Assembly: GCF_000423445.1 (NCBI RefSeq)
Contig: NZ_AUHZ01000008.1
Coordinates: forward strand, 62,001-126,000
Length of the DNA stretch: 64,000 nt
Direction of reading: 5' to 3'
Source: Acidipropionibacterium thoenii DSM 20276
GTDB taxonomy: Bacteria; Actinomycetota; Actinomycetes; Propionibacteriales; Propionibacteriaceae
Part shown: positions 16,724-43,102 of the stretch, one piece after another
Position numbering within the stretch: the first letter of the stretch is position 1
Layout of the letters: each line of letters begins with the position of its first letter
The notes under the pieces: model-generated
The model's input: the letters and a program-made list of their open reading frames with translations, nothing else
Told to the model about the DNA's origin: nothing
The model's database searches: none
Program-made: the position numbers and the translations under genes

Positions 16724-18379
16724 TCAGTCCATCAACACCTGGAAGTGGTCCTCGGCCAGGCTCTGCTCGCCGACCGGCTTGCGGCCATCGGCGCCGGCCA
16801 GCTGGACATCGACGGCCTGCACCAGCGGGGCGTGCAGCCCGACCATTCGCATGTCACAGATCAGCGTCCGGTGCTGGCACGGCACCGCCCATCGCAGCGC
16901 CGCCGGGGTGGCAGCGGTGAGGATCCGCTCCTCCAAGGGCGCACGCGGCATCAGAACGGGCCCGGCCTGTTCAGCCAGCGCATCGAGGCGGGCCTGGCGC
17001 ACCGGCCAGGGGACGTTGCGCAGCACATTGCGCGACAGCAGGCCGGTGTCGGGGGTGGGCGCCAGGAGCTCCTCCAGGGACCTGCCGGAGACCACGCAGT
17101 CCTCGATCGTCCTGGCCGCGGCGATCACCTCCGGCCAGGGTCGGATCCGGGCTGCCGGCGCCGCCACCCTCGCCAGGATCGAGGACAGCATCGCCGAGGC
17201 CGGCCGCCAGGCCTCGAAGGAGTCGGAGTTGGCCATCACCACGACACCGATGCCGGTGGTGGGGTGCCACCGCATGTGCGAGCTGAACCCGGGCAGCCCG
17301 CCGGAGTGCCCCACCACCCGGCCGAACCGGTGATCCAGCTCGCAGATCAGGCCATAGCCGTATCCCGCTGCGTCCAGCTGTCGCCCCGCGAAAGGCCACT
17401 CAGTGGTCCTCATCACGGTGTGAGCGGTCTGCATCCGGCGTCGGGAGGACGCCGCCAGCACCGCCTCGGAGCGGGAATCGGGGGTCTCGTCGAAGGCCGA
17501 GCCGAGGAAGTCCATCCAGCTGGCGAGATCGTCGAGGGTGCTGAACAGGTCCCCGATGCAGCCCAGCGCGCCGGACCCCACGAAGGGCTCCGGGGTGAAG
17601 GTGGCGCCACCGTCGAAGGTCCGGAAGCCGCCGGCGATGTCGGTGCCGCCGGGGTACAGCGAGGCATCGGGGCGGGTCGAGGCCAGACCGAGAGGGTCGA
17701 GGATCCTTTCCCGGATCGATGCTGCAACCGGACGGCCGGTGACCGCCTCGATGGCCCGGGCGATCTGGGAGACGCCGAGATTGGAGTACTGGTAGCGGGT
17801 TCCGGGCAGTCCGCCCAGCCGCAGCCCCGACCTCAGCTGAGCGGCGATCCACTCCCGGGACTCGGCCAGGTGCTCATCTCCCCAGGGGTTGTCCTCGGCG
17901 ATCCCCGACCGGTTGCTCAGCAACTCCTCCAGGCTGGCGTCGAGGACCGGGTCCTCGGCGCCTCCAGAGAGGTGGTAGCGAGCCCTGCCCAGACCCTCGA
18001 TCAGCTCGGCGGCCGGCAGGTTGAGGTCCAGGATCCCGGCGTCGCGCAGGGACAGCGCGGTGGCGGCCAGGAACGACTTGGACATCGAGGCGATCCGGTA
18101 GACGGTCCGCGCCGATGCCGAGCCGTCGTCCATCCGGGGAGAGCCGCTGGTGTGGACCGCCACCACCGAGCCCCGCCAGGTGATGGCGGCTACGCAGGAC
18201 GGCGCGAGTGCCAGGGTCGCGGCGTCCAGCTGGGAGTCGAGGACGCCCCGGCACAGCTCGGCGAAGTCTGCCGGGGGCTGCCAGACGGCCCCGATGGGAC
18301 AGTGCTGGACGGCGGCGGAGGGCAGGGCAGGCACGGGGGACATGAACGGATCCGGACCGATCGGCGGTTCTGGGATCAC
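16724..18379 (-). CDS. Serine hydrolase, class C beta-lactamase/DD-peptidase fold
   Basis: A 551-aa penicillin-binding-type hydrolase with no signal peptide. Catalytic motifs: SMSKS (Ser-x-x-Lys, near residue 98), YSN (in YQYSNLG), and HSG in GHSGGLPG replacing KTG. About 150 residues follow the catalytic domain with no recognised domain. The GTG start overlaps the stop of the upstream amidotransferase (GTGA), so the two are co-translated. Likely substrates are D-amino peptides or esters; a true beta-lactamase is less likely given cytoplasmic location. Confidence 0.85.
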   Translation of the reverse strand: MIPEPPIGPDPFMSPVPALPSAAVQHCPIGAVWQPPADFAELCRGVLDSQLDAATLALAPSCVAAITWRGSVVAVHTSGSPRMDDGSASARTVYRIASMSKSFLAATALSLRDAGILDLNLPAAELIEGLGRARYHLSGGAEDPVLDASLEELLSNRSGIAEDNPWGDEHLAESREWIAAQLRSGLRLGGLPGTRYQYSNLGVSQIARAIEAVTGRPVAASIRERILDPLGLASTRPDASLYPGGTDIAGGFRTFDGGATFTPEPFVGSGALGCIGDLFSTLDDLASWMDFLGSAFDETPDSRSEAVLAASSRRRMQTAHTVMRTTEWPFAGRQLDAAGYGYGLICELDHRFGRVVGHSGGLPGFSSHMRWHPTTGIGVVVMANSDSFEAWRPASAMLSSILARVAAPAARIRPWPEVIAAARTIEDCVVSGRSLEELLAPTPDTGLLSRNVLRNVPWPVRQARLDALAEQAGPVLMPRAPLEERILTAATPAALRWAVPCQHRTLICDMRMVGLHAPLVQAVDVQLAGADGRKPVGEQSLAEDHFQVLMD

Positions 18380-19107
18380 CCGTGGGCTCTTCGCTGCTCG
18401 AAGGCCTGGCGGATCTCGGCGGCGAAGCCGGCCACCATCTGGCGGGCGGCGGCGGTGTTGACGGCGTCATACCCCCGGGCCGCGGCCACCAGATCGTCGC
18501 GGGAGTAGCCGTCGGCGGCCAGTGCGGACTCGTCCCAACCCGCCAGGTTCTCAGCGGAGGCCTCGGGGTGGAACTGCAGGCCGCGGACATGGGAACCGAT
18601 CCGGAATGCCTGGTTGACGATCGCCTGGGAGGAGGCCAGCAGGACCGCCGTCGGTGGCAGCTCCGTGATCATGTCCTGATGGTTCTCGATCATCGGGGTG
18701 CCGTCCTTCAGGACGCCGGTCACCGGATCATCGGAGCCCTCGGCGGTGGTGTGGATGAGGGTGGCGCCGCGTTCCTTGGGTCCGGTCTTCGCACACACCT
18801 GGCCGCCGGCGACGTCGGCCAGCAGCTGTCCGCCCAGACAGATCCCCAGGGTGGGCAGATCCTCGTCGATGGCCTGCACTGCCAGCCTCCGCTCGCCGCG
18901 CAACCAGGGGGCCCGGTCGAACTCGTCGGGCATCAGTCCGCCGCCGAGCATGACCAGGCCGTCGAACTCGCCGAGATCATCAGGCAGGCCCTGGGAGGCG
19001 AGCTGCTCGCGCACCTCGAGTCCCTCCTCGACGAGCCAGCCCTTGAGCCGGCGCGGCCCCGAACTGGGCGAGTTGACGACCACCAGGACGGTGGGTGCGG
19101 TGCGCAT
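18376..19107 (-). CDS. Class I glutamine amidotransferase-like protein
   Basis: A 244-aa single-domain protein of the GMP-synthase-type GATase fold. The nucleophile elbow is GICLGGQLL and the His-Glu pair is in LQFHPEAS. Related stand-alone enzymes include gamma-glutamyl hydrolases and PuuD-like enzymes that cleave gamma-glutamyl amides, which would fit the peptide-degrading neighbourhood. The ATG has AAGGAGC upstream. It is coupled to the class C hydrolase downstream and separated from the M19 gene by a hairpin. Confidence 0.85.
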   Translation of the reverse strand: MRTAPTVLVVVNSPSSGPRRLKGWLVEEGLEVREQLASQGLPDDLGEFDGLVMLGGGLMPDEFDRAPWLRGERRLAVQAIDEDLPTLGICLGGQLLADVAGGQVCAKTGPKERGATLIHTTAEGSDDPVTGVLKDGTPMIENHQDMITELPPTAVLLASSQAIVNQAFRIGSHVRGLQFHPEASAENLAGWDESALAADGYSRDDLVAAARGYDAVNTAAARQMVAGFAAEIRQAFEQRRAHG

Positions 19108-19135
19108 CGGTTCTGCTCCTTGATGTTGCGGTTCG

Positions 19136-19165
19136 GGCCCGGCCGGGATCGCTCCCGGCCGGGCC
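19136..19165 (-). terminator. Hairpin between dipeptidase and amidotransferase genes
   Basis: A 13-bp perfect stem (GGCCCGGCCGGGA with its complement) around TCGC lies in the 82-base gap. It probably attenuates or ends the pabC-dipeptidase transcript, so the last two genes may have their own promoter. Confidence 0.6.
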
Positions 19166-19189
19166 GGCGGGGGCACCCGGACCACCGGC

Positions 19190-20290
19190 TCAATCCGTGA
19201 GATCGACCGCCGGGGCGAGTGCCTGAGGATCCGGCTGGGGGGCGTCCCCCCTCATGAAGGCACGGTAGTCGGGGTCGGATGCCTCCACCACCCGCAGCAC
19301 ATTGCGGTGGCCGGCGGCCTCCAGATCGGCCCGCGACCAGCCACGCCGCGACAGCTCCGCGAGCAGCTGCTGGTAGTGCGAGACGTCGTCCAGCCCCCGG
19401 GGCATCGAGCCGGTTCCGTCGTAGTCGGCGCCGATCCCGACCGCCGAGACGCCGGCCACCTCGCGGACATGGTCCATGTGGTCGGCGACCTGGGAGATTC
19501 CGACCGTGGGGGGTTCCCCGACCTCCCCGGCCTCCACCCAGTCGTGCCTGGCCTGGCTGACGAAGGAGGGCACGAAGGCCACCATCACCACCCCGCCGCC
19601 CTCCCCGATCCGGGAGATGACGTCGTCAGGGACATTGCGCGGGTGGTCGCACAGCGCGAGGGTGGCCGAATGGGAGACCATCACCGGGCGGGTGCTGGCT
19701 GCCAGCGCGTCGCGCATCGTCGAAGGGGCGACATGGGCCAGATCGACGACCATCCCGATCCGGTTCATCTCCCTGACCACCTCGACGCCGAAGCCGCTCA
19801 GCCCGTCGTGGCGAGGGACATCTGTGGCCGAGTCGGCCCAGTCGGTGGTCCGCGACCAGGTGAGCGTCAGGTAGCGGGCCCCGAGTCGGGCGTACTGGCG
19901 CAGCACCGCCATCGAGCCGTCGATCTGGGCGCCTCCCTCGACCCCGATGAAGGAGGCGATCCGGCCCTGACCGGCGATCCGACGGGCGTCGGCGGCGGTG
20001 GCCGCCAGCTCCAGGGTGTCGGGGTAGCCGGCCACCAGTCGTTGCACGAAGTCGATCTGTTCCAGGGTGCCGGTCACCTGCTGGGCGTCGGTCAGCTGCG
20101 GATCCACCCACACCGACCAGAACTGGCCCTGCACGCCGCCGGCCACCAGCCTCGGAAGGTCGGTGTGCAGGCCGGCCACCGGGTGGGCCGGATCGTCGAG
20201 CCCACCGACCCGGTAGCCGCGGATCTGGCGGGCGGCCCAGGCCAGATCGTTGTGGCCGTCGATGACGCCGATCACATCAGTGTCGCCCAC
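19190..20290 (-). CDS. Membrane dipeptidase (peptidase M19)
   Basis: A 366-aa zinc dipeptidase related to renal dipeptidase, a family that cleaves L-Xaa-D-Xaa dipeptides and sometimes beta-lactams. Metal ligands are visible: DGHNDLAW at the N-terminus, GVEGG (bridging Glu), LAHV and VSHS (His), and GADYDGTGSMP near the C-terminus. There is no signal peptide. I chose GTG 20290, which follows the upstream stop by two bases; a GTG at 20275 is the alternative. It is tightly linked to the class IV aminotransferase. Confidence 0.88.
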   Translation of the reverse strand: MGDTDVIGVIDGHNDLAWAARQIRGYRVGGLDDPAHPVAGLHTDLPRLVAGGVQGQFWSVWVDPQLTDAQQVTGTLEQIDFVQRLVAGYPDTLELAATAADARRIAGQGRIASFIGVEGGAQIDGSMAVLRQYARLGARYLTLTWSRTTDWADSATDVPRHDGLSGFGVEVVREMNRIGMVVDLAHVAPSTMRDALAASTRPVMVSHSATLALCDHPRNVPDDVISRIGEGGGVVMVAFVPSFVSQARHDWVEAGEVGEPPTVGISQVADHMDHVREVAGVSAVGIGADYDGTGSMPRGLDDVSHYQQLLAELSRRGWSRADLEAAGHRNVLRVVEASDPDYRAFMRGDAPQPDPQALAPAVDLTD

Positions 20291-20292
20291 CC

Positions 20293-21165
20293 TCAGGACC
20301 GGCGCTTCTCGAGATCGTCGTTGATGGCCTGGGTGGCCTGGTGGTCGAGGGCCACCGGCTTGCCGTCCAGAGTCCGGATCGGGGCGGCACCACGGGTGCT
20401 GGAGCACAGCCACAGCCCCTCGGCGCCGGCCAGCTCGGAGACCATGATGTTGCCCACCGTGGTGGGCAGGCCGCGAGCCTCCAGCTCGGTGAAGATGTCC
20501 CCCTGGGTGGTGCCCTTCAGTATCCCCAGGCTGTCCGGAGGGGTGACGTAGACCCCGTCGATCCGGGCGATGAGAGAGGCGCTGGGGCCCTCCAGGGCGT
20601 ATCCGTCGATGCTGGTGAAGATGACATCGGAGGCGCCGCGACGCTCGGCCTCTCGCAGCACCGCCTTGTTGACCGCGTACGACAGGGTCTTGGCCCCCTG
20701 CAGCAGCCAGGGTGAGGTCTCGGCGACGTCATGGCGGTAGCCGCGGTCCAGGGTCACGACGTCCAGACCGTCACGGCGGACCTCGGTCGGGTCATCGGCG
20801 AGGTATCCCAGGGCCCATCCCGACGGTGCCGAGACCTGGCCCTCGATGCCGCGGGTCATGCAGAACTTCACCGCGGCCAGCACACCCACATCGGCCATCT
20901 GATGGGCGGTGTCGACGACCACGCGGCGCCATAGGTCGAGGTTGGGCTCGGGCAGCTCCAGCATCGCCGCCGAGTGGGCGAACCGGGCCAGGTGGGCCTC
21001 CAGGGCCAACGGGACGCCGTCGATGACGCCGGCCGTCTCGAAGATCCCGTCTCCTCGCGTGATGCCCAGGTCGTCGACCCGGATCAGGGTGGCGTCGGTG
21101 GGGTGGCTGCGGAAGGATCCCTCGGGGGTCGACAGATCGACGAAGTTGAGGATCATTGGTTTCAT
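20293..21165 (-). CDS. Class IV aminotransferase, aminodeoxychorismate lyase-like
   Basis: A 290-aa PLP enzyme of fold type IV. The PLP lysine is in QGAKTLSYAVNK (around residue 158), with ITRGDGIFE near the N-terminus and the phosphate-binding LKGTTQGDIF near the end. The overall pattern matches actinobacterial 4-amino-4-deoxychorismate lyase (PabC), which makes p-aminobenzoate for folate. The same fold includes D-amino-acid aminotransferases, which would suit the next gene (M19 dipeptidase), so the reaction is not settled. Confidence 0.8.
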   Translation of the reverse strand: MKPMILNFVDLSTPEGSFRSHPTDATLIRVDDLGITRGDGIFETAGVIDGVPLALEAHLARFAHSAAMLELPEPNLDLWRRVVVDTAHQMADVGVLAAVKFCMTRGIEGQVSAPSGWALGYLADDPTEVRRDGLDVVTLDRGYRHDVAETSPWLLQGAKTLSYAVNKAVLREAERRGASDVIFTSIDGYALEGPSASLIARIDGVYVTPPDSLGILKGTTQGDIFTELEARGLPTTVGNIMVSELAGAEGLWLCSSTRGAAPIRTLDGKPVALDHQATQAINDDLEKRRS

Positions 21166-21485: not shown

Positions 21486-23336
21486 ATGCGTAACAGATCA
21501 CGCACCATCAGGAGGGTGTCGGCCTCGCTCGTGGCCGCCACCCTGCTCGCCGCAGGCTCGATCGGGGGCGCCGGGTCGGCCAGCGCCGCTCCCTCTCATG
21601 ACGTCGCTGACAGCTCCGCCTCGCCGAGCACATCGGCCAGCCCCAGCGTGCTGAGGATCGCGACCTCCGGGTTCGTGGACAGCTTCAACCCGTTCACCTC
21701 GATCTACCTGCTGCCGACCAACTCGATCCGCTACATGTACGAGAACCTGGTGGCCAACGACCAGAAGGACGGCTCCCCGACGAAGGGGCTGGCCGACTCC
21801 TGGAAGACCTCCAACGACGGCAAGACGTGGACCTTCACCATGCAGGACGGCCTGAAGTGGTCCGACGGGCAGCCGATCACCTCGGCCGACGTCAAGTACA
21901 CCTACGACCAGATGATGAAGGTCCCCGACCTGGCGGTGGCCAATGGCAACCTGGTGAGCAACTTCGCCAGCGTCGAGGCCCCCGATGCCAAGACTCTGGT
22001 GATCAACCTCAAGACCGCTCAGGCCCCAAACCCTGGCGTCGAGATCCCGATCGTCCCCGAGCACATCTGGTCCAAGATCAAGGATCCCGCCAAGTTCACC
22101 AATGAGTCGAACACGGTGGGCTCCGGCCCCTTCCAGCTGGTGAGCTACAAGGCCAACCAGAGCATCGTCTTCAAGGCCAATCCCAGCTACTGGCGCGGCG
22201 CCCCCAAGGTCTCCGGGCTCCAGTACATCTACTACACGAACTCCGATGCCCAGGTGCAGGCGCTGCGCTCGGGAGACGTGGACTTCGTCACCGGGTTGAC
22301 CTCGACCCAGTTCAACGCACTCAAGGGGGCCACCGGGGTCACCACCCACTCCGGGCTCGGACGCCGGTACACCTCGATCAGCATCAACAGCGGGATGGAG
22401 ACCACCAGCGGACAGGCCTTCGGTACCGGCGCGGCGGCCCTCAAGGACGTCAAGGTGCGCCAGGCGCTACGCCAGGCGATCGACAACAAGACCCTGCTCT
22501 CCAAGGTGCTCAACGGCCAGGGCACCGAGGCCACCAGCTTCATCCCGGCCTCCTTCCCGAAGTGGAGCCTGCCGACCAACAGCCCGGTGATCATCAAGTA
22601 CGACCCGGCGGCCGCCGAGAAGACCCTGGACGCCGACGGCTGGAAGGTCGGCTCGGACGGCATCCGGGCCAAGAACGGTCAGAAGCTGAGCCTGCGGCTG
22701 CTCGTCGACTCCAGTGATCCCACCGAGCAGACCAGCGCCGACTACCTCAAGCCGTGGCTGAAGAAGGTCGGCATCGACCTGAAGGTGCAGTCCAGCGACT
22801 CCGACACGATCTCCGACAAGACCGTCAAGGGCGACTATGACATGTACTTCTCGGGCTGGAGCATCAACCCGGATCCGGACTACCAGCTGGGCATCAACAC
22901 CTGCTCCTCCCGACCGACCCGTACCGACGGCACCGGTGGCACCACCCAGGACGGCTACTGCAACCCCGCCTTCGACAAGCTCTATGCCGAGCAGCGCGCC
23001 GCGCTCGACGAGACCAAGCGTCGCGCCATCGTTCAGAAGATGCTCGAGATGAACTACACCGACACCCCGCAGATCGCGATCTGGTACGGCAACTCGCTGG
23101 AGGCCTACCGCTCCGACCGATTCACCGGTTTCGCACTGCAGCCCTCCAACAACGGCATCATCGCCAACCAGGCCGGCGCCTGGGGCTTCCTGGAGGCCGC
23201 CCCGGTGGCGGGTTCGACCAATACCTCGAGCTCTCACACCGGACTGGTCGTCGGCGGCATCGTCGTCGCGGTGCTGGTGATCGCCGGCGTCGTCTGGTTG
23301 CTGGTGCGGCGTCGGCACGCCGACGAGACCGAGTGA
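21486..23336 (+). CDS. Peptide ABC transporter substrate-binding protein (SBP family 5)
   Basis: A 616-aa exported solute receptor. A twin-Arg-free Sec signal peptide (LVAATLLAAGSIGGAGSASA) is followed by a Ser-rich linker and the family 5 domain (NPFTSIYL, then GLADSWKTSNDGKTWTF). There is no lipobox. Instead the protein ends in a transmembrane helix (GLVVGGIVVAVLVIAGVVWL) and RRR, an unusual way to hold a binding protein on the membrane. The ATG follows GAAGGAAG. First gene of the importer operon. Confidence 0.92.
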   Translation: MRNRSRTIRRVSASLVAATLLAAGSIGGAGSASAAPSHDVADSSASPSTSASPSVLRIATSGFVDSFNPFTSIYLLPTNSIRYMYENLVANDQKDGSPTKGLADSWKTSNDGKTWTFTMQDGLKWSDGQPITSADVKYTYDQMMKVPDLAVANGNLVSNFASVEAPDAKTLVINLKTAQAPNPGVEIPIVPEHIWSKIKDPAKFTNESNTVGSGPFQLVSYKANQSIVFKANPSYWRGAPKVSGLQYIYYTNSDAQVQALRSGDVDFVTGLTSTQFNALKGATGVTTHSGLGRRYTSISINSGMETTSGQAFGTGAAALKDVKVRQALRQAIDNKTLLSKVLNGQGTEATSFIPASFPKWSLPTNSPVIIKYDPAAAEKTLDADGWKVGSDGIRAKNGQKLSLRLLVDSSDPTEQTSADYLKPWLKKVGIDLKVQSSDSDTISDKTVKGDYDMYFSGWSINPDPDYQLGINTCSSRPTRTDGTGGTTQDGYCNPAFDKLYAEQRAALDETKRRAIVQKMLEMNYTDTPQIAIWYGNSLEAYRSDRFTGFALQPSNNGIIANQAGAWGFLEAAPVAGSTNTSSSHTGLVVGGIVVAVLVIAGVVWLLVRRRHADETE

Positions 23337-23343
23337 CCGACCG

Positions 23344-23377
23344 GCTGGGGCGTCGCGGCAACGCGCGACGCCCCAGC
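23344..23377 (+). terminator. Hairpin between binding protein and permease genes
   Basis: A 14-bp perfect stem (GCTGGGGCGTCGCG with its complement) around a 6-base loop lies just after the stop. In binding-protein operons such a partial terminator or 3' stabiliser keeps receptor levels above permease levels. Confidence 0.6.
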
Positions 23378-23504
23378 TGAGTCCGGCCCATCCGCTCCCC
23401 ACCCGTCCGGTCCGGCCCCGACATGGCAACCTGTCGAGGCCGCCTCCACCCCATACGCCCAGCTGCGCCGAGTCGCTGATCCGGGCCCTCTCGAAGGAGA
23501 CGCC

Positions 23505-24536
23505 ATGTCCACTGCCGTCGCGTCCACGGTCACCGTGGGGGAGACCGACGAGCCGCCGCGCAGCGTACCTGCGATCAAGTACTTCCTGAGCAAATTGGGG
23601 GGTTCGGCGATCTCGATGGTGATGGTGATCCTGCTCGGCTTCTTCGCCTTCAAGCTGCTGCCGGGGGACCCGGTGGCGCTGATGGCCAGGGAACGACCGA
23701 TGAGCGCCGAGCAGATGGATCAGCTGCGGGCCCAGCTGGGCCTCAGCAAGCCGATGATCGTGCAGTTCTGGGACTACCTGGTCAACGTCTTCACGCTCAA
23801 CTTCGGCAACTCCTACGTCTACAAGCAGTCGGTGGCCAGCCTCATCGGGCAGTACTTCTGGAACACCATCCTGCTCACCGGCACCTCGGCAGTGATCGCC
23901 ATCGCGCTGGGCCTGTGGCTCGGCCAGCGCTCGGCATGGAAGCACGGCTCCTGGTTCGACCGGATCTCCTCCGGCATCGCCCTGGTGTTCTGGTCGGTGC
24001 CCACCTTCTGGCTCGCCCTGCTGCTGCTGATGGTCTTCGGCGGCTCCCTGCAGTGGTTCCCGACCGGCGGGATGATGAGCCCCTCGCCACCGACCGGAAC
24101 CCTGGACAAGGTCCTCGACGTCGCCTCGCACATGGTGCTGCCGGTGATCACCATGGTCGCGGTGGTCTACGCCCAGTACCTGATGGTGATGCGCGCCTCC
24201 CTCATCGAGGAGATGGGCGAGGACTACCTCACCACAGCCCGCGCCAAGGGCCTGCGCGAGGACAAGGTGAGAACCCGCCATGCCGTCCCGAACGCGCTGC
24301 TGCCCACCGTCACCCTGGTCTTCATGCACATCGGCGGGCTGATCGCCGGGGCGGTGACGGTGGAGACGGTGTTCTCCTGGCCCGGGCTCGGCAAGCTCAC
24401 CTATGACGCGATCAGCGGCCCCGACCTGCCGCTGCTGCAGGGCACCTTCGTGGTCTTCTCGGCGATCATCATCGTGACGAACCTGATGGCCGATCTCGTC
24501 TATCGCCTGCTCGACCCGAGAGTGAGGACGGCATGA
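23505..24536 (+). CDS. Dipeptide/oligopeptide ABC transporter permease (DppB type)
   Basis: A 343-aa inner-membrane permease with six transmembrane helices and the BPD_transp_1 fold. The N-terminal segment LPGDPVALM and the coupling-helix region EDYLTTARAKGLREDKVRTRHAVPNA are characteristic of DppB/OppB; the latter contacts the ATPases. Ribosome site GAAGGAG. The stop overlaps the next start (ATGA). Confidence 0.94.
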   Translation: MSTAVASTVTVGETDEPPRSVPAIKYFLSKLGGSAISMVMVILLGFFAFKLLPGDPVALMARERPMSAEQMDQLRAQLGLSKPMIVQFWDYLVNVFTLNFGNSYVYKQSVASLIGQYFWNTILLTGTSAVIAIALGLWLGQRSAWKHGSWFDRISSGIALVFWSVPTFWLALLLLMVFGGSLQWFPTGGMMSPSPPTGTLDKVLDVASHMVLPVITMVAVVYAQYLMVMRASLIEEMGEDYLTTARAKGLREDKVRTRHAVPNALLPTVTLVFMHIGGLIAGAVTVETVFSWPGLGKLTYDAISGPDLPLLQGTFVVFSAIIIVTNLMADLVYRLLDPRVRTA

Positions 24537-25459
24537 CCGCGACCACACCGACACCCGTGATCCAGGCCGGGTCGGCCCGGACGATGGCGTGGCGCCGCCG
24601 GAGCGCTGCGGCCAAGGACTTCTGGCGGGAGTTCCGCCAGTACCCCTCGGGAATGACCGGCCTGGTGGTGCTGGCTGTGATCATCATTCTGGCGCTGCTG
24701 GCACCGGTGCTGGCACCCACCCGGATGCTCGACCTCACCCAGCTGCTGGACAGCCCCCGCTACGCCCCGCCCTCCTGGTCCCATCTGTTCGGCACCGACG
24801 ACCAGGGCCGGGAGCTGTGGGTGCGGATGCTGTGGGGGTCGCGGGTCTCCCTGGTGGTCGGTTTCGCGGCCACCGCGATGTCGATGATCATCGGCACCAT
24901 CATCGGGATCGCCGCCGGTCACTTCACCGGCTGGGTCGGCGGCCTGCTGATGCGCATCGTCGACTTCTTCCTGGTGCTGCCCTCCCTGATCCTGGCGATC
25001 GTGCTCTCCTCGGTACTGTCCCGAGGGGTGATGACGATCGTCATCGCGATCGGCCTGACCTCCTGGGCCGGCACCGCCCGGGTGGTCCGCTCCCAGACGC
25101 TGTCGGTGGAGTCGCGAGATTACGTCGAACGGGCCCGGGTGCTGGGTGCCGGCCACTGGCACATCATCATCAAGCACTTGCTGCCGGCGGTGATGCCGCT
25201 GGTGCTGGCCAACACCACACTGACCGTCGGGTCGGCGATCATCGCCGAGTCGACACTGTCCTTCCTGGGCCTGGGCGACCCGTCCAAGCAGTCCTGGGGC
25301 ACCATTCTGAAGAACTCGATGGACCTGTCGGCGGCCACCAGCGGCTACTGGTGGTACGTGCTCATCCCCGGCCTGGCGATCCTGTTGGTCGTGCTGTCCT
25401 TCACCCTGGTGGGCCGGGTCGTGGAGACCATCGTCAACCCAACCCTGAGGAGTCGGTGA
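24533..25459 (+). CDS. Dipeptide/oligopeptide ABC transporter permease (DppC type)
   Basis: A 308-aa permease, partner of the previous gene. It has the long cytoplasmic N-terminus, the GTDDQGRELWVRMLWGSR segment and the coupling helix (ESRDYVERARVLGAGHWHII) typical of DppC/OppC. It is coupled to DppB by a 4-base overlap and followed 3 bases later by the ATPase gene. Confidence 0.94.
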   Translation: MTATTPTPVIQAGSARTMAWRRRSAAAKDFWREFRQYPSGMTGLVVLAVIIILALLAPVLAPTRMLDLTQLLDSPRYAPPSWSHLFGTDDQGRELWVRMLWGSRVSLVVGFAATAMSMIIGTIIGIAAGHFTGWVGGLLMRIVDFFLVLPSLILAIVLSSVLSRGVMTIVIAIGLTSWAGTARVVRSQTLSVESRDYVERARVLGAGHWHIIIKHLLPAVMPLVLANTTLTVGSAIIAESTLSFLGLGDPSKQSWGTILKNSMDLSAATSGYWWYVLIPGLAILLVVLSFTLVGRVVETIVNPTLRSR

Positions 25460-25462
25460 GCC

Positions 25463-27121
25463 ATGCCGGATCTCATCTTCGACGACGTCTCGATCACCTA
25501 CCGGACGTCGGGGCGCAACTCCCGAGGCGATGTCGCAGCGGTCAAGCACGTCAGCCTGGAGCTGCCCGCCGGCGGGACCCTCGGAGTGGCCGGCGAGTCC
25601 GGCTCCGGGAAATCCACCCTGGCGATGAGCGTGCTTCGGCTGCTGCCCAGGAACGCGACCCTGAAAGGCTCGGTGCGGATCGGCGAGACCGACGTCTCCG
25701 ATCTGTCCTTCGGCGAACTGCGCGCGGTCCGCTGGGCCGAGGCCTCGATCATCTTCCAGGGGGCGATGCACTCGCTCAACCCCGTGCACACCGTCGGACG
25801 CCAGATCCTGGAGGCCCTCGAGCTGCACGTCACCGACCGGTGGCGGACCGAGAAGGCCCGCAAGGACCGCGTCAAGGAACTCATGGAGGTCGTGGACCTG
25901 CCCGCCGAGAAGGCCGAGTCCTACCCCCATGAGCTGTCGGGAGGCCAGAAGCAGCGGATCATGATCGCGATGGCGCTGGCCTGCGAGCCCGACATCATCG
26001 TCGCCGACGAGCCGACCACCGCCCTGGACGTCATCGTCCAGAAGCAGATCCTCGACATGATCAACGATCTGGTCCAGGAGGGCGGCATCTCGTTGATGAT
26101 GATCAGCCACGACCTGTCGGTGCTGGCCACCGCCTGCCAGCGGATCGCGGTGATGAAGGACGGCGAGCTGGTCGAGGTGGGGGACGCCCATCAGATCTGC
26201 CTGGACCCCCACCAGCCCTACACCCGGCAGCTGGCCTCCGCCTTCCCGGTGATCGGCGATCCGGCCTCGCGGATGAACCCGATCTCGCGGCGGGAGCGTC
26301 CGGCGAGGCCTCCGGTCGACCAGCGCCACCAGATGACCGACGAGGTGCTGCTGGAGGCCCACGGGCTCAATGTCACCTATCGCAGCGGCCGCAAGGCCGT
26401 GCACGCCGTCAAGGATGTCGACCTCACCATCCGCAGCGGCGAGATCCTGGCCCTGGTGGGCCAGTCGGGATCGGGCAAGTCCACCTTGGCGCGCACCGTG
26501 CTGGGGCTCCAGCCCGCTGACGACGGATCGGCCATCCAGTTCCGCGGCCAGGATCTGCCCCATCGGGGCAGGGCGTTGCGCGACTTCCGCGGCCAGGTGC
26601 AGATGGTGCTGCAGGATCCCTCGGCGGCCCTCAACCCGAAACTGTCGGTCTACGAGCTGGTGGCCGAGGGACTGCGCATCCAGCACTTCGACGGCGATGA
26701 GGAGCAGCGGGTCGTCGAGAGCCTCACCGAGGCCGAGCTCATCCCGGCCGGCGACTATCTCGGTGCGATCCCCCAGGAGCTGTCGGGAGGTCAGCGTCAG
26801 AGGGTGGTGATCGCCGGGGCCCTGGCGATCCACCCGGAGGTGCTGGTGGCCGACGAGCCGGTGGCCTCCCTCGACGCCTCGGTGCGCGGGGAGATCCTGG
26901 CCCTGCTGCTGTCGCTGCGTGAACGGCTGGGGCTCAGTGCCCTGGTGATCACCCACGATCTGGGCCTGGCATGGAACATCGCCGACACGGTGGCGGTGAT
27001 GTACCGGGGCCGGATCGTCGAGCACGGCCCGACCGAGCAGGTGCTGCTCCACCCGCAGCACGAGTACACCAGGACCCTGCTGGCCGCAGCCCCGAGCATC
27101 CGGGACCAGGAGGTGGCATGA
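25463..27121 (+). CDS. Fused double ATP-binding subunit of peptide ABC importer (DppD-DppF)
   Basis: A 552-aa protein with two complete ABC domains. Domain 1 (1-260): Walker A GESGSGKST, signature LSGGQKQR, Walker B DIIVADEPTTALD. Domain 2 (about 290-552): Walker A GQSGSGKST, signature LSGGQRQR, Walker B VLVADEPVASLD. This replaces separate DppD and DppF, a common actinobacterial arrangement, and powers the importer. It overlaps the next gene by 4 bases. Confidence 0.95.
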   Translation: MPDLIFDDVSITYRTSGRNSRGDVAAVKHVSLELPAGGTLGVAGESGSGKSTLAMSVLRLLPRNATLKGSVRIGETDVSDLSFGELRAVRWAEASIIFQGAMHSLNPVHTVGRQILEALELHVTDRWRTEKARKDRVKELMEVVDLPAEKAESYPHELSGGQKQRIMIAMALACEPDIIVADEPTTALDVIVQKQILDMINDLVQEGGISLMMISHDLSVLATACQRIAVMKDGELVEVGDAHQICLDPHQPYTRQLASAFPVIGDPASRMNPISRRERPARPPVDQRHQMTDEVLLEAHGLNVTYRSGRKAVHAVKDVDLTIRSGEILALVGQSGSGKSTLARTVLGLQPADDGSAIQFRGQDLPHRGRALRDFRGQVQMVLQDPSAALNPKLSVYELVAEGLRIQHFDGDEEQRVVESLTEAELIPAGDYLGAIPQELSGGQRQRVVIAGALAIHPEVLVADEPVASLDASVRGEILALLLSLRERLGLSALVITHDLGLAWNIADTVAVMYRGRIVEHGPTEQVLLHPQHEYTRTLLAAAPSIRDQEVA

Positions 27122-28095
27122 TGCCGTCGGCCACGGTGGCCTCCACCGCCCGACCCGCTCGGGCCTATCTGGACTCCGCCCCGCTGAGCCCAGGTGACGT
27201 CGTCGCCCTGGTCGCGCCGTCCGGGCCCACCAACGAGCAGAGCATCGGGTGGGCGGTCGGCTACCTCGAGGGGCTCGGACTGGAGGTGCGGCTGGGCGCC
27301 AACATCCTGGCCCACGACCCTCGCGCCCGGTACATGGGTGGGTCCGACGACCAGCGCCGGGCCGATCTGGTGGCGGCCTGGACCGACCCCGGGACCGACG
27401 CGGTGGTGTGCGCCCGCGGAGGTTACGGCGCGATGCGGCTGATCGACGGGATCGACTGGCAGCAGATGGCCGCGGCCGCCAGGCGCCGCGACGGGAGGCC
27501 CAAGCTGCTCACCGGTTCCAGCGACATCACCGCACTCCACGAGGCCTTCCGCTGCCATCTGGGAGTGCCGAGCCTGTTCTGCCCGATGCCGGCCAACGAC
27601 GTCTTCAAGGATTCCGCGCTGATCCAGGACGACGTCACCAGGTGGTTGACGCAACCCTGGCGGGGCCGCCGGATCGCCGGGCCGAGGGCCGAGGTGATGG
27701 TGCCCGGGACCGTCCATGGATGGTTCCGCGGCGGCAATCTGTCCCTGCTGGCCGCCGGGATCGGGGCTCGGGAGGCCGGCCCCGGTGGGCAACCCGAGAT
27801 CCTGCTGCTGGAGGATGTCGGCGAGGAGGTCTACCGGCTGGACAATCTGATGATCCAGATGGCCCGCAGCGGGCGGTTGGCCGGGGCCGCCGCGGTGCTG
27901 CTGGGGTCCTGGCGGGACTGCGGCGATTCCGATCAGATCCGCGCCCTGATGGCCGAGTACCTCAGCGGTCTGGAGGTGCCGGTGGCCTGGGAGGTGGGCT
28001 TCGGCCACGACCGCGATGCGCGCAGCATCCCGCTCAATGTGCCCGGCGTGGTGGATCTACCAGCGGGCGGGCCGGTCACCGTGAGGGTCGGGTGA
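27118..28095 (+). CDS. LD-carboxypeptidase (peptidase S66, MccF/LdcA-like)
   Basis: A 325-aa cytoplasmic serine peptidase. The nucleophile is in TGSSDITALH (about residue 137), with the Glu in LLLEDVGEEVYRLD and the His in GFGHDRDA completing the S66 triad. Family members cut L,D bonds in muropeptides (LdcA) or aminoacyl-nucleotide amides (MccF). The start is ATG 27118 (AGGAGG just upstream, overlapping the ATPase stop); ATG 27121 is adjacent. Its place behind a peptide importer suggests it trims imported peptides. Confidence 0.9.
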   Translation: MMPSATVASTARPARAYLDSAPLSPGDVVALVAPSGPTNEQSIGWAVGYLEGLGLEVRLGANILAHDPRARYMGGSDDQRRADLVAAWTDPGTDAVVCARGGYGAMRLIDGIDWQQMAAAARRRDGRPKLLTGSSDITALHEAFRCHLGVPSLFCPMPANDVFKDSALIQDDVTRWLTQPWRGRRIAGPRAEVMVPGTVHGWFRGGNLSLLAAGIGAREAGPGGQPEILLLEDVGEEVYRLDNLMIQMARSGRLAGAAAVLLGSWRDCGDSDQIRALMAEYLSGLEVPVAWEVGFGHDRDARSIPLNVPGVVDLPAGGPVTVRVG

Positions 28096-28099
28096 AGTG

Positions 28100-28567
28100 A
28101 TGCCTCGAGGTGAGAGCCTGGACCGGCAGGACCGGTGTCTGCTGGCCCTGCTGGCCGACGACGGTCGCGCTCGTCTCTCCTCCCTGGCAGCGGCGACCGG
28201 GCTGTCGATCTCCACCGTCCAGACCCGGGTCCGTCGGTTGGAGGAGATCGGGGCGATCACCGGGTACCGGGCGGTCGTCTCCCCGGAGACCCTGGGCTGC
28301 CCGCTGGCCGCATTCGTCGAGGTCTACGCCGAACCCGGGATGAATGACGAGGTCCCGGCAGCCCTCAAGGATATCCGCGAGGTCCAGGCCTGCTGGACGG
28401 TGGCCGGCGATGCCACCCACCTGATGCTGGTGCGGGTCGGCCACGCCCAGCAGTTGGACGAGGTGCTGACCCGGATACGCTCTGCGGTGCACACCCGCAC
28501 CCGTACCACCATGGTGCTGCGCTCCCACTTCGATCGCGTCGTGGCGCCGGATCCGGAGATCATCTGA
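28100..28567 (+). CDS. Lrp/AsnC-family transcriptional regulator
   Basis: A 155-aa regulator. The N-terminal helix-turn-helix (LDRQDRCLLALL, then LSSLAAATGLSISTVQTRVRRLEE) is followed by an RAM/AsnC ligand domain to the end. Such proteins respond to amino acids, so it is the obvious local controller of the peptide operon; candidate sites are the repeats at 21207 and 21356. ATG 28100 is preceded immediately by an in-frame GTG at 28097. Confidence 0.92.
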   Translation: MPRGESLDRQDRCLLALLADDGRARLSSLAAATGLSISTVQTRVRRLEEIGAITGYRAVVSPETLGCPLAAFVEVYAEPGMNDEVPAALKDIREVQACWTVAGDATHLMLVRVGHAQQLDEVLTRIRSAVHTRTRTTMVLRSHFDRVVAPDPEII

Positions 28568-29469
28568 TGCCTGTTGCCCAACCCGGCCCCATCGTCCCCA
28601 CCGAACTGGACCCACGGATCAGCTGGTCGATCCGCATCCTGGACGCCACCGTCGGGGATCTCTCGCCGACCTCCTCGGCCGGGGTGCTGGCCGAGCACAC
28701 CCCCGAGGTGGTCTGCAAGACCGCCAGCGTCGGCAAGCTCTTCCTGCTGGTGGAGGTCGCCAACCGGCTGGAGGACGGTCGGCTGGATCCTGGCCGGCGC
28801 ATCGAGATCCCCGACGAGCTGCGCGTCGAGGACTCCGGCCTGCTCTACCGGATGGCCGACCAGCGTCTCACCGTCGCCGACGCTGCCCTGCTGGTGGGAG
28901 CGGTCAGCGACAACCTGGCCACCAATGCGCTGGCCCACCTGGTCGGGCTGGACGCCGTCCACGACATCTCCCGGCGGCTGGGCTATCAGCACACCCTGAT
29001 GCTGGACTACATCCGCAACGAGCGGACCCCCGATGTGCCCTGGACCACCTCCTACGGCTGCGCAGCAGAACTGGCCGATCTCATTGCGGGTCTGGGGGAG
29101 GGATTCAGTCCGGCTCACCCCGGAGCCGAGCTGCTCTCCGACCCGGTGCGCCATCGGGTGCTCACCTGGCTGGCCGCCGACACCGACACCTCGATGCTCG
29201 CCGACGCCTTCCTGCTGGACCCGCTGGCCCATGTCGAACCCGAGTACCAGCAGATGGTGCTGCGACACAAGACCGGGTCCATCGAGACCGCCCGGATCGA
29301 GGTCGGGCATCTCAGCGGCCCGCAGGGGCGGGTGGCCTATGCGGTGGCCGCCAACTGGCCCGACGGGCTGGATCTTCGTGCCGCCGCGATCGATGACATG
29401 CGGGAGATCGGGGAGCAGATCCGGGCCCACGTCACCGGGCGGGCACGCGATGACGGCGGGGTGCTGTGA
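28567..29469 (+). CDS. Class A beta-lactamase-fold serine hydrolase, paralogue 1
   Basis: A 300-aa protein without signal peptide. Motifs: Ser54-Val-Gly-Lys57, Ser114-Asp-Asn116 and Lys235-Thr-Gly. Counting from SDN, the place of the class A deacylating Glu166 is Arg150 (in LDYIR), so it should not turn over beta-lactams by the usual route. Acyl transfer, esterase or D-peptidase activity on an imported compound is more likely. TGATG coupling to the regulator gene; GTGA overlap with the C45 gene. Confidence 0.88.
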   Translation: MPVAQPGPIVPTELDPRISWSIRILDATVGDLSPTSSAGVLAEHTPEVVCKTASVGKLFLLVEVANRLEDGRLDPGRRIEIPDELRVEDSGLLYRMADQRLTVADAALLVGAVSDNLATNALAHLVGLDAVHDISRRLGYQHTLMLDYIRNERTPDVPWTTSYGCAAELADLIAGLGEGFSPAHPGAELLSDPVRHRVLTWLAADTDTSMLADAFLLDPLAHVEPEYQQMVLRHKTGSIETARIEVGHLSGPQGRVAYAVAANWPDGLDLRAAAIDDMREIGEQIRAHVTGRARDDGGVL

Positions 29470-30581
29470 CCCTCACACGTCTGGAACCGGTCTCGGGGCT
29501 GCCCTGGACGGTGATCCGCGGCGACCGGCGGACGGTGATGACCGAGCTGGGCCGCGCCCATGCCGAGCAGATCGCAGCCTGGCGAGAGCTGCCCGGCTGG
29601 GCCCGGCTGGTCGAGAGGGCCACCGAGCCCGACGGCCCAGGACATGACGTCTTCGATGCGGTGGTCGCCTCCAGCAGGAGACTGCTGCCGGTGGAGTCCC
29701 AGGAGCTGGAGTGGCTGGCGGCCGGTGCGGGGGTCCCTGCGGCCGAGCTGTGGGCGGTCAACCTGCGCGGCGACCTGGGGCGCGACGGCACCGGTTGCTC
29801 CGATCTGTGCACCGCCGCCGCGGGCCGGGTGCTGATGGGCCACAACGAGGACGGGGATGCTGAGCTGGCCGATCTGGTGCGCCTGGTCACCCTGCGGATC
29901 GACGGGGACCCGACAGTGACGGTGGTCTGGTACCCCGGGATGCTGCCGGCCAACTCCTTCGTGACGACCTCGGCGGGGCTCAGTTTCGGGATGGACCATG
30001 TGCCGGTGGGGGTCTCCTTCACCGGCGGTGCGGGACGCCATCTGGTCGCCCGGCACGCCCAGCGCCAGGCCGACGGGAGGGCGGCCCGCACCGTCCTGGA
30101 GACGCTGCCGTGCGCCGGTGGTTTCGCCTTCGACCTGGCCGATGGTCCCGGCGGCCGGGCCGATCTCATCGAGAACGCCGCGGGCCGGGTCGCCAGTGCC
30201 GGCGCGGCCGGCCAGCCGGGTGCCGAACCACTGCACCACACCAACCATCTGCTGCTGCTGGACGGCCGACGCGAGGGGCTGGCGGTCGATCCCGCCGATC
30301 CCTGGCTGGCTGAGAGCAGGACCAGGCGACGCCGCCTGGTCCGGGCCGCCGCGGATCATCGGCTCGATCCCTCGCAGACCCCTGCCGCAGCGAGCTCCGC
30401 CGAGCGGCTCGCGGCGGCGCTGCGCAGCGACGGCGTGCTGAACCGGCGTCCCGGCATCTGGACCTTTGCGACCGCGGTGGCCGACCCGGCCGCCGACCGG
30501 ATCTGGTTGCAGGGCAAGGGCGCTCCCTGGACCGGTGTGCTGAGCGCCTTCGCCGCCGGAGAGAGGATCAGCTGTGCCTGA
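29466..30581 (+). CDS. C45-family acyltransferase/acyl hydrolase (penicillin acyltransferase-like)
   Basis: A 371-aa Ntn-hydrolase resembling acyl-CoA:6-aminopenicillanate acyltransferase. The predicted autoprocessing site is Gly110-Cys111 in DGTGCSDLCT, exposing Cys111 as nucleophile, followed by the typical VLMGHNEDGD. Family members cleave or exchange N-acyl groups on amino acids or peptides. It is cytoplasmic and sandwiched between two class A paralogues, with a GTG start overlapping the previous stop. Confidence 0.85.
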   Translation: MTLTRLEPVSGLPWTVIRGDRRTVMTELGRAHAEQIAAWRELPGWARLVERATEPDGPGHDVFDAVVASSRRLLPVESQELEWLAAGAGVPAAELWAVNLRGDLGRDGTGCSDLCTAAAGRVLMGHNEDGDAELADLVRLVTLRIDGDPTVTVVWYPGMLPANSFVTTSAGLSFGMDHVPVGVSFTGGAGRHLVARHAQRQADGRAARTVLETLPCAGGFAFDLADGPGGRADLIENAAGRVASAGAAGQPGAEPLHHTNHLLLLDGRREGLAVDPADPWLAESRTRRRRLVRAAADHRLDPSQTPAAASSAERLAAALRSDGVLNRRPGIWTFATAVADPAADRIWLQGKGAPWTGVLSAFAAGERISCA

Positions 30582-31416
30582 CCGGGCCCCGATATCCATC
30601 AACAGTCCCGAGATCCCAGACCGGCTCCGCGAGGTAGCCGGAGTCGACTGGTCGGCGCTGGCGGTCGACATCGACTCCGGCGGGGTGCTCTTCGAACTGG
30701 ACGCCGAGCGGGTCTGCGACACCGCCAGCGTCGGCAAGATCTTCCTGCTGCACCGACTACTGGCTGAGGTCGACGCCGGCACCCGGAGCCTGGAGGAGCG
30801 CGTCACCCGGCGTCCGGCGGAGTGGATGGACAACTCCGGGCTGTGGTACCTGCTCCAGCAGGACGAGCTGAGCCTCTACGACGTCGCCGCCCTGATCGGG
30901 GCGGTCAGCGACAATGCGGCCACCAACACGATGGTGCGGGTGATCGGGCTGGACGCCGTGCGGGAGCACACCCGCGAACTCGGCTACCAGCACAGCGGCC
31001 TCGACGACTGCGTCCGGTGGCCGATCCCGCCCGGCTACCCCGCCACCCTGTCGCACGGCAGCGCCGCTGAGCTGGTGCGATTCTGCACCCGCCTGGCGCG
31101 GCGTCAGGACCTCTCGGAGGCTTCTGCCGATCAGCTGCAGCGCTGGCTGGGGGCCGGCACGGACCTGTCGATGGTCGCCTCGGCCTTCGGCCTGGACCCG
31201 CTGGCGCACTACTACTTCGACCGCGACATCTGGCTGTGGAACAAGACCGGCACGATCTCCACGGTGCGCGCCGACATCGGGGTGGTGATGACACCGACGC
31301 GGCGGATCGGCTACGCGGTGCTGGCCAACTGGGGTTCCGGCCGCCAGGTGCGCGACGCCGTGCTCGCCGCGATGAGAGAGGCCGGGCTGGCGATCCGCCG
31401 GCAGCTGGTGGGCTGA
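30574..31416 (+). CDS. Class A beta-lactamase-fold serine hydrolase, paralogue 2
   Basis: A 280-aa paralogue of the gene two upstream. Motifs: Ser52-Val-Gly-Lys55, Ser112-Asp-Asn114, Lys224-Thr-Gly. The Glu166 position is again Arg (Arg148, in LDDCVR). The two share TASVGK, GAVSDN and LGYQH nearly word for word, indicating duplication. No signal peptide. The GTG start overlaps the C45 gene by 8 bases, with GAGAGGATC upstream. Last gene of the importer operon. Confidence 0.88.
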   Translation: MPDRAPISINSPEIPDRLREVAGVDWSALAVDIDSGGVLFELDAERVCDTASVGKIFLLHRLLAEVDAGTRSLEERVTRRPAEWMDNSGLWYLLQQDELSLYDVAALIGAVSDNAATNTMVRVIGLDAVREHTRELGYQHSGLDDCVRWPIPPGYPATLSHGSAAELVRFCTRLARRQDLSEASADQLQRWLGAGTDLSMVASAFGLDPLAHYYFDRDIWLWNKTGTISTVRADIGVVMTPTRRIGYAVLANWGSGRQVRDAVLAAMREAGLAIRRQLVG

Positions 31417-31600: not shown

Positions 31601-31939
31601 TCAGATCGCGTCGTCTCCGCGCTCGGCGGTACGGATCCGGATGACATCCTCGACGGGTGTGATCCACACCTTGCCGTCTCCGATCTCTCCGGTCCGGGCT
31701 GCGTCGCAGATCGTGGTGGTGATCTCATCGGCCTCAGCATCCGGTGAGAGGATCTCGATGCGGACCTTCTCGACGAAGTCGATGGTGAACTCGGCTCCGC
31801 GGTAGACCTCGACGTGTCCGCGCTGGCGCGCGTACCCGCTGGCCTCCGAGATCGTCATTCCGCCGATGCCTTTGGTGGCGAGGGCCAGCTGGACGTTCTC
31901 CAGGGTGGCCGGCTGGACGATTGCTGTGATGAGCTTCAT
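31601..31939 (-). CDS. glnK: PII nitrogen regulatory protein with Phe at position 51
   Basis: A 112-aa trimeric signal protein that binds ATP/ADP and 2-oxoglutarate and plugs AmtB-type channels. It aligns without gaps to E. coli GlnB through the T-loop GHVEVYRGAEF: Tyr46 is kept but the modified Tyr51 is Phe. The B-loop (TGEIGDGKVW) and IRIRTAERGDDAI tail are intact. It lies 18 bases after amt, with ribosome site AGGAAGGGAG. Control by uridylylation or adenylylation at residue 51 is therefore impossible; ligand sensing should remain. Confidence 0.95.
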   Translation of the reverse strand: MKLITAIVQPATLENVQLALATKGIGGMTISEASGYARQRGHVEVYRGAEFTIDFVEKVRIEILSPDAEADEITTTICDAARTGEIGDGKVWITPVEDVIRIRTAERGDDAI

Positions 31940-31957
31940 GCCTGCACTCCCTTCCTG

Positions 31958-40213: not shown

Positions 40214-40216
40214 GCT
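40211..40216 (+). promoter_or_regulatory. Putative -10 of leaderless hpt transcript
   Basis: TAGGCT overlaps the tilS stop and lies 6 bases before the hpt GTG. There is no Shine-Dalgarno sequence for hpt. Confidence 0.45.
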
Positions 40217-40222
40217 CGACCC

Positions 40223-40774
40223 GTGCGAGCTGCTGATCTGCCAGAAGATTTCGACCACGTCCTCTACTCCCAGGAGGAGGTGGCGAGCCGCATCGCGGAG
40301 ATCGCCACCGTCATCGACCACGACTACGCGGGCCGCGAGCCGTTGCTGGTCGGCGTCCTCAACGGGGCGGTGATGACGATGGCCGATCTGTGCCGGGCGA
40401 TGAAGGTGCACTGCCAGATGGACTGGATGGCGGTCTCCTCCTACGGCGCCGGCACCAAGTCCAGCGGCGTGGTGCGGATCCTCAAGGACCTCACCACTGA
40501 CATCAAGGACCGTGATGTCCTGATCGTCGAGGACATCATCGACACCGGCCTGACGCTGTCCTACCTGGTCGACAACCTGCGGACCCGTGAGCCAGCCAGC
40601 CTGGAGATCATGGCGATGTTCCGCAAGCCGGAGGCGCTGACCGCCCCGGTCGACGTCAAGTACATCGGCTACGACATCCCCAACGAGTTCGTGGTGGGCT
40701 TCGGACTGGACTACGCCGGCCGCTACCGCAACCTCACCGACGTCGCCACCCTCGCCGAGCACGTGTACAAGTGA
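40223..40774 (+). CDS. hpt: Hypoxanthine phosphoribosyltransferase
   Basis: Purine salvage: makes IMP/GMP from hypoxanthine/guanine and PRPP. 183 aa. The PRPP loop is VLIVEDIIDTGLTL and the flexible loop is VSSYGAGTKSSG. The tilS-hpt-ftsH order is conserved in many Gram-positive bacteria. Confidence 0.95.
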   Translation: MRAADLPEDFDHVLYSQEEVASRIAEIATVIDHDYAGREPLLVGVLNGAVMTMADLCRAMKVHCQMDWMAVSSYGAGTKSSGVVRILKDLTTDIKDRDVLIVEDIIDTGLTLSYLVDNLRTREPASLEIMAMFRKPEALTAPVDVKYIGYDIPNEFVVGFGLDYAGRYRNLTDVATLAEHVYK

Positions 40775-40893
40775 GCCGGGCCCCTCACGGGCCGAGCTGC
40801 ACCTCCACCTGGCCGGTCCTGCGGATTCGGGGTCGGCAAGGGACCCGCTGGTAGGGTCTGGGTCTGACCCCCACCACTTGGCATAGGCAGTAA

Positions 40894-43074
<2,181 letters not shown>

Positions 43075-43090
43075 TCGTGCCGACTGCTCC

Positions 43091-43096
43091 TAGGAT
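43091..43096 (+). promoter_or_regulatory. Putative -10 of leaderless folE transcript
   Basis: TAGGAT precedes two consecutive GTG codons (43100, 43103). The usual 6-base spacing seen at other genes here points to GTG 43103. Confidence 0.45.
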
Positions 43097-43102
43097 CGAG
43101 TG

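Follow-up and report, generated by a model that had tools for sequence, protein, structure and literature searches.

The genes at nt 21486–31416 of a 64,000-nt stretch of the Acidipropionibacterium thoenii DSM 20276 genome (contig NZ_AUHZ01000008.1, nt 62001–126000; hereafter, the window), together with a divergent arm at nt 16724–21165, probably represent a modular actinobacterial system for the uptake and cytoplasmic catabolism of peptides containing D-residues. Import and breakdown of D-peptides is strongly supported by the conserved importer operon, the lack of signal peptides on its hydrolases, an M19 dipeptidase resembling Sco3058, a class IV pyridoxal phosphate (PLP) enzyme of the CpuTA1 type (AT4), the associated genes for a GNAT protein, an N-succinylamino acid racemase (NSAR) and an M20 peptidase, and the presence of DppA in a related cluster (L103). 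The narrower proposal, that the substrates are specifically the stem peptides of cell-wall peptidoglycan, falls a little short of an even chance in our estimation.

Layout and conservation of the locus

The importer operon consists of nine open reading frames (ORFs), all on the forward strand. Genes for a peptide-binding protein (SBP), two permeases (B and C) and a fused double ATPase (DF) are followed by those for an S66 LD-carboxypeptidase, an AsnC-type regulator, a class A-fold serine hydrolase (clA1), a C45 N-terminal nucleophile (Ntn) hydrolase and a second class A-fold protein (clA2; Table 1). Overlaps of 4 nt occur at three junctions (B/C, DF/S66 and clA1/C45), the C45/clA2 and AsnC/clA1 overlaps are 8 nt and 1 nt, respectively, and spacers of 3–4 nt are found at C/DF and S66/AsnC. 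The start codon of S66 is the ATG at nt 27118, inside the DF stop overlap. An initial annotation of this DNA had described nine genes of these families, in one orientation and mostly overlapping, and the ORFs and their Pfam and NCBIfam matches agree with it. It had also taken nt 21486–31416 as the whole unit; the genes within these limits were correctly assigned, but the functional unit is larger and includes the divergent arm, which had been missed.

The sole large gap in the operon (168 nt) separates SBP from permease B. The sequence at nt 23334–23430 folds with an energy of -52.1 kcal/mol (z -3.5), and the hairpin lies directly 3' of the SBP stop codon and has no T-run. Hairpins placed after binding-protein genes often allow an excess of binding protein to be made, and this one may likewise raise the output of SBP. 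Scans for promoters and terminators gave nothing above chance.

The order SBP-B-C-DF-S66-(AsnC)-clA1-C45-clA2 is shared by 16 loci from three families (5 in Acidipropionibacterium, 9 in Microbacterium, and one each in Galactobacter and Pseudoclavibacter), and every gene has a dN/dS (nonsynonymous relative to synonymous change) of about 0.15–0.5 when the window is compared with the congener G027. The locus is therefore more than a chance assembly, and the co-inheritance that the initial annotation had looked for is present. Identity to the window at the conserved loci is 73–92% for the permeases and 52–73% for S66 and C45. In a search with C45, each of the five Acidipropionibacterium genomes gave a strong orthologue, and among named genomes others were present in Microbacterium, Galactobacter valiniphilus and Pseudoclavibacter soli; matches in Bordetella and in genus g14 share no context with the module and were rejected as copies of it. 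The same divergent arm is found in Microbacterium and Pseudoclavibacter, where it is joined by genes for an NSAR-type enolase, a SIS protein and a GNAT protein, with M20 placed just before SBP. The Galactobacter contig stops inside SBP, and its divergent arm lies outside the readable sequence. Three Microbacterium loci obtained after this pattern had been noted show the same operon order and divergent arrangement, but one of them (L072) lacks AT4, has lost clA2 and carries a frame-broken C45.

Not all parts of the operon are equally constant. Among 198 Microbacterium genomes, 18 have clA2 (E <1e-130) and 7 have C45; the two are strongly associated (Fisher p 1.6e-6), but 12 of the 18 genomes with clA2 are without C45, and in the six of these that were inspected clA1 adjoins clA2. 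C45 is thus an optional gene placed between clA1 and clA2, which rules out as the core a fixed triplet of S66, C45 and class A-fold genes, such as had been suggested for a neighbourhood analysis. AsnC, present in Acidipropionibacterium, Galactobacter and Pseudoclavibacter, is absent from all Microbacterium copies examined. It too is optional, and the sensor role initially assigned to it is not supported.

By hydropathy, no N-terminal hydrophobic segment was found on S66, clA1, C45, clA2, M19, the amidotransferase-like protein (GATase), AT4 or the class C protein, in agreement with the earlier statement that the hydrolases have no signal peptides; no sign of secretion was seen. Among the non-permease proteins SBP alone has such a segment, and it also has a C-terminal transmembrane anchor. 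The same C-terminal anchor occurs on the binding protein in L026.

Table 1. Features of the importer operon and divergent arm (window coordinates)
Feature	Coordinates	Strand	Evidence and remarks
Class C beta-lactamase-fold serine hydrolase, AmpH / D-aminopeptidase-like	16724..18343	-	PF00144 4.8e-38; last gene of divergent arm
GATase: class I glutamine amidotransferase-like protein	18376..19107	-	PF00117 6.9e-16
M19 dipeptidase, Sco3058 relative	19190..20290	-	PF01244 6.6e-104
AT4: class IV PLP enzyme, CpuTA1-like D-amino acid transaminase or aminodeoxychorismate lyase (ADCL)/D-amino acid aminotransferase (DAAT)	20293..21165	-	PF01063 1e-39
SBP: peptide-binding protein, SBP family 5	21486..23336	+	PF00496 1.3e-90; signal peptide and C-terminal membrane anchor by hydropathy
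RNA hairpin, no T-run	23338..23383	+	Between SBP and permease genes; strong fold
ABC permease B	23505..24536	+	PF00528 6.6e-44
ABC permease C	24533..25459	+	PF00528 1.7e-31, with OppC_N
DF: fused double ATPase	25463..27121	+	Two ABC_tran domains and oligo_HPY
S66 LD-carboxypeptidase, LdcA-like	27118..28095	+	PF02016/PF17676
AsnC/Lrp-type regulator, accessory	28100..28567	+	PF01037, PF13404
clA1: class A-fold serine hydrolase	28567..29469	+	PF13354 (Beta-lactamase2) 6.1e-29; SVGK/SDN/KTG, Ile149 at Glu166 position
C45 Ntn-hydrolase, accessory	29466..30581	+	NF040521, AAT/C45 Pfam; nucleophile Cys111 in GTGCSD
clA2: class A-fold serine hydrolase	30574..31416	+	PF13354 (Beta-lactamase2) 1.8e-30; SVGK/SDN/KTG, Val147 at Glu166 position

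Several features of the surroundings may be added. Genes for a P-II protein and an ammonium transporter (window nt 31601–33331) lie directly downstream on the opposite strand, and do so throughout Acidipropionibacterium. The Microbacterium module lies between a fol/ftsH/hpt/tilS block and lysS (L039–L044), and in Acidipropionibacterium the same block lies downstream, about 8 kb from the module (window nt 39227–46009), representing either a shared neighbourhood or a coincidence. A DUF2520/Rossmann gene occurs between clA1 and C45 in three loci (L024:2473–3174, L026:9300–10001, L072:2748–3407), and was judged a displaced neighbour rather than part of the module, since in L041, L042 and L071 DUF2520 borders the module. 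In L044, L046, L072, L088 and L089 a gene for a C39-like peptidase lies between M20 and SBP, on the strand opposite to both, and three Microbacterium loci (L086, L090, L091) have another SBP-B-C importer, distinct from the first, next to the module on the far side of the class C gene.

Hydrolases without export signals

The SxxK, SDN and KTG motifs are invariant in alignments of 13 clA1 and 12 clA2 orthologues and further copies. The position of the catalytic omega-loop glutamate, Glu166, was located by a gap-free count from a conserved glycine, and no aligned clA1 or clA2 has a glutamate there; the residue is Ile149 in clA1 and Val147 in clA2 (Ile in some copies). The omega loop of clA2 has no glutamate at all, while clA1 has Glu152 three residues past the 166 position, invariant among clA1 proteins and not kept in all of the single-copy relatives. 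AlphaFold2 models have a pLDDT (predicted local distance difference test) of 80.6 for clA1 and 79.3 for clA2, and are weak in the omega loop. Foldseek matched the clA1 model to 4ewf, BlaB, TEM and PBP-A; the top match of clA2 was PBP-A (2j9o), and the matches of the pair also include GES and LRA-5. PBP-A, which is without the omega-loop glutamate, has DD-carboxypeptidase/endopeptidase activity and acts specifically on muropeptides with an amidated D-iso-glutamate (D-iGln) (PMC11189452), and LRA-5, with Val166, is inactive on beta-lactams and confers no resistance to them (PMC12777564). Given the retained motifs, the loss of Glu166 and these two parallels, clA1 and clA2 are best read as putative D-peptidase-type acyl enzymes rather than beta-lactamases. 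A class A beta-lactamase function was rejected because both Glu166 and an export signal are absent, and the 'beta-lactam-type' activity named in the initial annotation finds no support in these residues. Other clA paralogues, in Microbacterium (L051–L054, near an M13-type peptidase) and in L092–L094, have differing contexts, and in one genome (G063) clA2 is present as overlapping partial copies (L015:14450–15628), which points to a duplication followed by decay, or else to a fault in the assembly.

S66 has both domains of its family (PF02016 and PF17676), and the motifs of its Ser-Glu-His triad (GSSD, LED and GH) are invariant in 13 orthologues. Its profile scores 117–122 bits against LdcA structures, compared with about 78 or less for those named MccF and 88.6 for one described as MccF-like. 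The score against the NCBIfam LdcA equivalog is 115.9 bits, far below the cutoff of 378; S66 is a member of the family and closer to LdcA than to MccF, and at most a putative LdcA equivalent. C45 passes the NCBIfam model C45_proenzyme (NF040521; 143.6 bits, cutoff 85) and is a predicted autoproteolytic acyltransferase/hydrolase, its Cys111 aligning with the nucleophile cysteine of isopenicillin N acyltransferase (2x1d). The latter enzyme removes an aminoadipyl group that is attached by its side-chain carboxyl, which suggests that the target of C45 may perhaps be side-chain-linked as well, e.g. gamma-D-glutamyl.

In the divergent arm, the class C gene is kept in all complete divergons. Its product scores best with AmpH among NCBIfam models (54.5 bits), followed by D-aminopeptidase (42.9 bits), both far under cutoff. 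The best PDB match of M19 is 3id7 (346.5 bits), and its nearest characterised relative is Sco3058 of Streptomyces coelicolor, an L-Xaa-D-Xaa dipeptidase. M19 and GATase are fused into a single protein, with GATase at the C-terminal end, in many Microbacterium loci (L039, L041, L042, L044 and L048; 581–618 aa). The fusion was also seen in L087–L089, and is a guide to a substrate shared by the two proteins. The AT4 profile has as its best PDB match 5k3w (366 bits), CpuTA1 of Curtobacterium pusillum, which transaminates D-alanine with alpha-ketoglutarate (PMC5131300). AT4 scores 268.4 bits against the ADCL model, the cutoff being 273; enzymes of the Rv0812 type catalyse both the D-amino acid transaminase and the ADCL reactions (PMC8105722).

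Proposed D-amino acid conversion and the likely substrate

The enolase-superfamily protein is of the NSAR type. Its profile scores about 340–348 bits against NSAR and N-acylamino acid racemase (NAAAR) structures versus 110 bits for L-Ala-D/L-Glu epimerase, and it passes TIGR01928, while models of the epimerase are far under cutoff. A role in menaquinone synthesis is unlikely, as the protein groups with NSARs, other matches to the family are present in these genomes, and the gene clusters with GNAT and M20. The GNAT family match is weak. In Geobacillus kaustophilus, GNAT, NSAR and M20 enzymes reportedly turn D- into L-amino acids via N-succinyl intermediates, and GNAT, SIS, the NSAR-type racemase and M20 together would be the set expected for such a conversion. 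When independent loci were picked by enolase alone and eight were read, GNAT and M20 lay beside enolase in all eight and an adjacent SIS gene in seven. One of the enolase clusters (L103) unites an importer and S66 with GNAT, enolase, M20 and a DppA-family (M55) D-aminopeptidase; in two others (L099 and L105) enolase is followed by a class A-fold gene and one for an amidohydrolase of the PRK09061 subfamily, for which a D-aminoacylase-like role is a guess; and L101 has the importer, S66 and the M20/GNAT-SIS-enolase genes and is devoid of class A-fold genes. What recurs is an importer, S66 and D-amino acid conversion, with C45 and the genes of the beta-lactamase fold as additions. Some Microbacterium also have a second GNAT-enolase pair, without SIS, elsewhere (L051:18166–19901, L073:2189–4046).

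From the gene content, order and co-inheritance described above, the catalytic motifs, the lack of signal peptides and the nearest characterised relatives, we infer the substrates and the order of steps as follows. The anchored SBP and the ABC importer would bring a D-residue peptide into the cell, where clA1, clA2 and the class C protein may cut bonds of the D-Ala type through an acyl-enzyme, in the manner of PBP-A or AmpH. The LdcA-like S66 would take off the D-residue after the diamino acid, C45 and the amidotransferase-like protein may attack side-chain (gamma- or iso-) amide or isopeptide bonds, and M19 would cleave L-Xaa-D-Xaa dipeptides. The freed D-amino acids could then be transaminated by AT4, or N-succinylated by GNAT, racemised by the NSAR-type enolase and desuccinylated to the L-form by M20. 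Of the import and cytoplasmic breakdown initially proposed for 'acylated or D-residue peptides', the part concerning D-residues has strong contextual support, while nothing specific points to acylated peptides.

Peptidoglycan stem peptides would fit every enzyme of the module. Several points weigh against this scheme. The module is not accompanied by any gene for muramic acid or amino sugars, and its spread is patchy (C45 in 7/198 Microbacterium genomes, and the genome of the window alone at high score among 395 genomes of the class), which fits the use of a foreign nutrient better than universal self-recycling. clA1 has the invariant Glu152 close to the omega loop, a part of the model with low confidence (pLDDT <50). 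SIS has no known role, and the succinyl specificity of GNAT is putative, resting on context and on the pathway reported for Geobacillus. The Acidipropionibacterium GNAT-SIS-enolase/M20 block lies on a different contig or at another chromosomal position; it is intact in some congeners, but M20 of the window genome is frame-broken (L065:12581–13659, contig C4), through real decay or an assembly error, and a further congener (G003) has no close enolase and is missing the block. The D-to-L arm is therefore dispensable in Acidipropionibacterium.

The rarity and patchiness of the module would also suit the scavenging of D-residue or gamma-linked peptides of non-wall origin by the same chemistry, such as racemised peptides of food or soil, poly-gamma-glutamate fragments or non-ribosomal peptides. 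That C45, AT4 and AsnC differ among copies is expected if substrates differ, and the absence of accompanying amino-sugar genes points the same way. Against such sources, the LdcA-like S66, the PBP-A-like and AmpH-like proteins, M19 and the amidotransferase jointly match every unusual bond of the stem peptide, so that we regard them as unlikely, while taking them seriously. A pathway with C45, M20 and enolase at its centre, for which peptides are secondary to N-acyl amino acids or similar amides, such as lipoamino acids and N-acyl-D-amino acids, appears quite improbable. N-acyl bonds are the targets of C45 and M20, NSARs racemise many N-acyl amino acids (PMC7431475), and L099 and L105 have the possible D-aminoacylase, but C45 is missing from many copies while the peptide importer and S66 recur regardless. 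Immunity to an imported peptide antibiotic, with S66 acting like its family member MccF, would account for the combination of importer and S66 and has still less to commend it, since the amino acid conversion genes indicate catabolism and the S66 profile scores, which favour LdcA, tell against it. Uptake of beta-lactams and their detoxification or degradation by beta-lactamases and a penicillin-acylase-like C45 is suggested by the fold families (Beta-lactamase2, Beta-lactamase, AAT) and is the least credible reading, being opposed by the lack of Glu166 (compare LRA-5, PMC12777564) and of export, and leaving enolase, GNAT and M20 without a role.

With D-peptide catabolism retained as the preferred reading, a bolder proposal may be made tentatively: clA1, clA2 and C45 could constitute a new class of cytoplasmic serine and Ntn peptidases for D,D-, D,L- and gamma-linked bonds. 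Together with the importer and the genes for racemisation they would make up a modular system, spread horizontally among Actinobacteria, for eating cross-linked wall peptides.

Relation to known systems

The uptake and consumption of wall peptides by Gram-positive Actinobacteria is poorly known, and the module provides a concrete, testable set of genes. It also offers a likely function for many proteins whose annotation goes no further than 'class A beta-lactamase-related serine hydrolase', 'C45 peptidase' or 'o-succinylbenzoate synthase', and enzymes with beta-lactamase folds, PBP-like and seemingly cytoplasmic, that are without Glu166 bear on the origin of beta-lactamases. No description of the cluster was found in the literature searched, which was covered in part and did not extend to subscription papers.

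The muropeptide importer YejBEF-YepA of Agrobacterium (PMC9790009) is, like the importer described here, a peptide-family ABC system, there used in peptidoglycan recycling; it differs in belonging to another branch of the family and in its enzyme set. Thermosynechococcus PBP-A shares with clA1 and clA2 the class A beta-lactamase fold, the SxxK, SDN and KTG motifs and a residue other than Glu at position 166. Unlike it, clA1 and clA2, at about 20% identity, are predicted to be cytoplasmic and are encoded in an importer operon. The clustering of GNAT, NSAR and M20 reported for G. kaustophilus recurs, here with SIS, in many Actinomycetes, but it is joined to a peptide importer and D-peptidases; in the window genome it stands apart from these and is partly broken, and its succinyl step is putative.

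A further close parallel is the dppABCDE-ykfABCD region of Bacillus subtilis, which likewise combines a peptide ABC importer with an S66 protein (YkfA), the cytoplasmic handling of wall peptides containing D-residues and an enzyme of the enolase superfamily (the functions of YkfABC are reviewed in PMC3305447). DppA (M55) is found in the related cluster L103 only. In contrast to dpp-ykf, the window locus has neither DppA nor a dipeptide epimerase, the enolase here being of the NSAR type, and YkfC (NlpC/P60) was not seen in the window locus, no genome-wide search having been made; the module has clA1, clA2, the class C protein, C45, M19, GATase and AT4 instead. Judged by its predicted proteins, the system is a variant of D-peptide catabolism of the dpp-ykf type, with an unusual set of putatively cytoplasmic beta-lactamase-fold enzymes.

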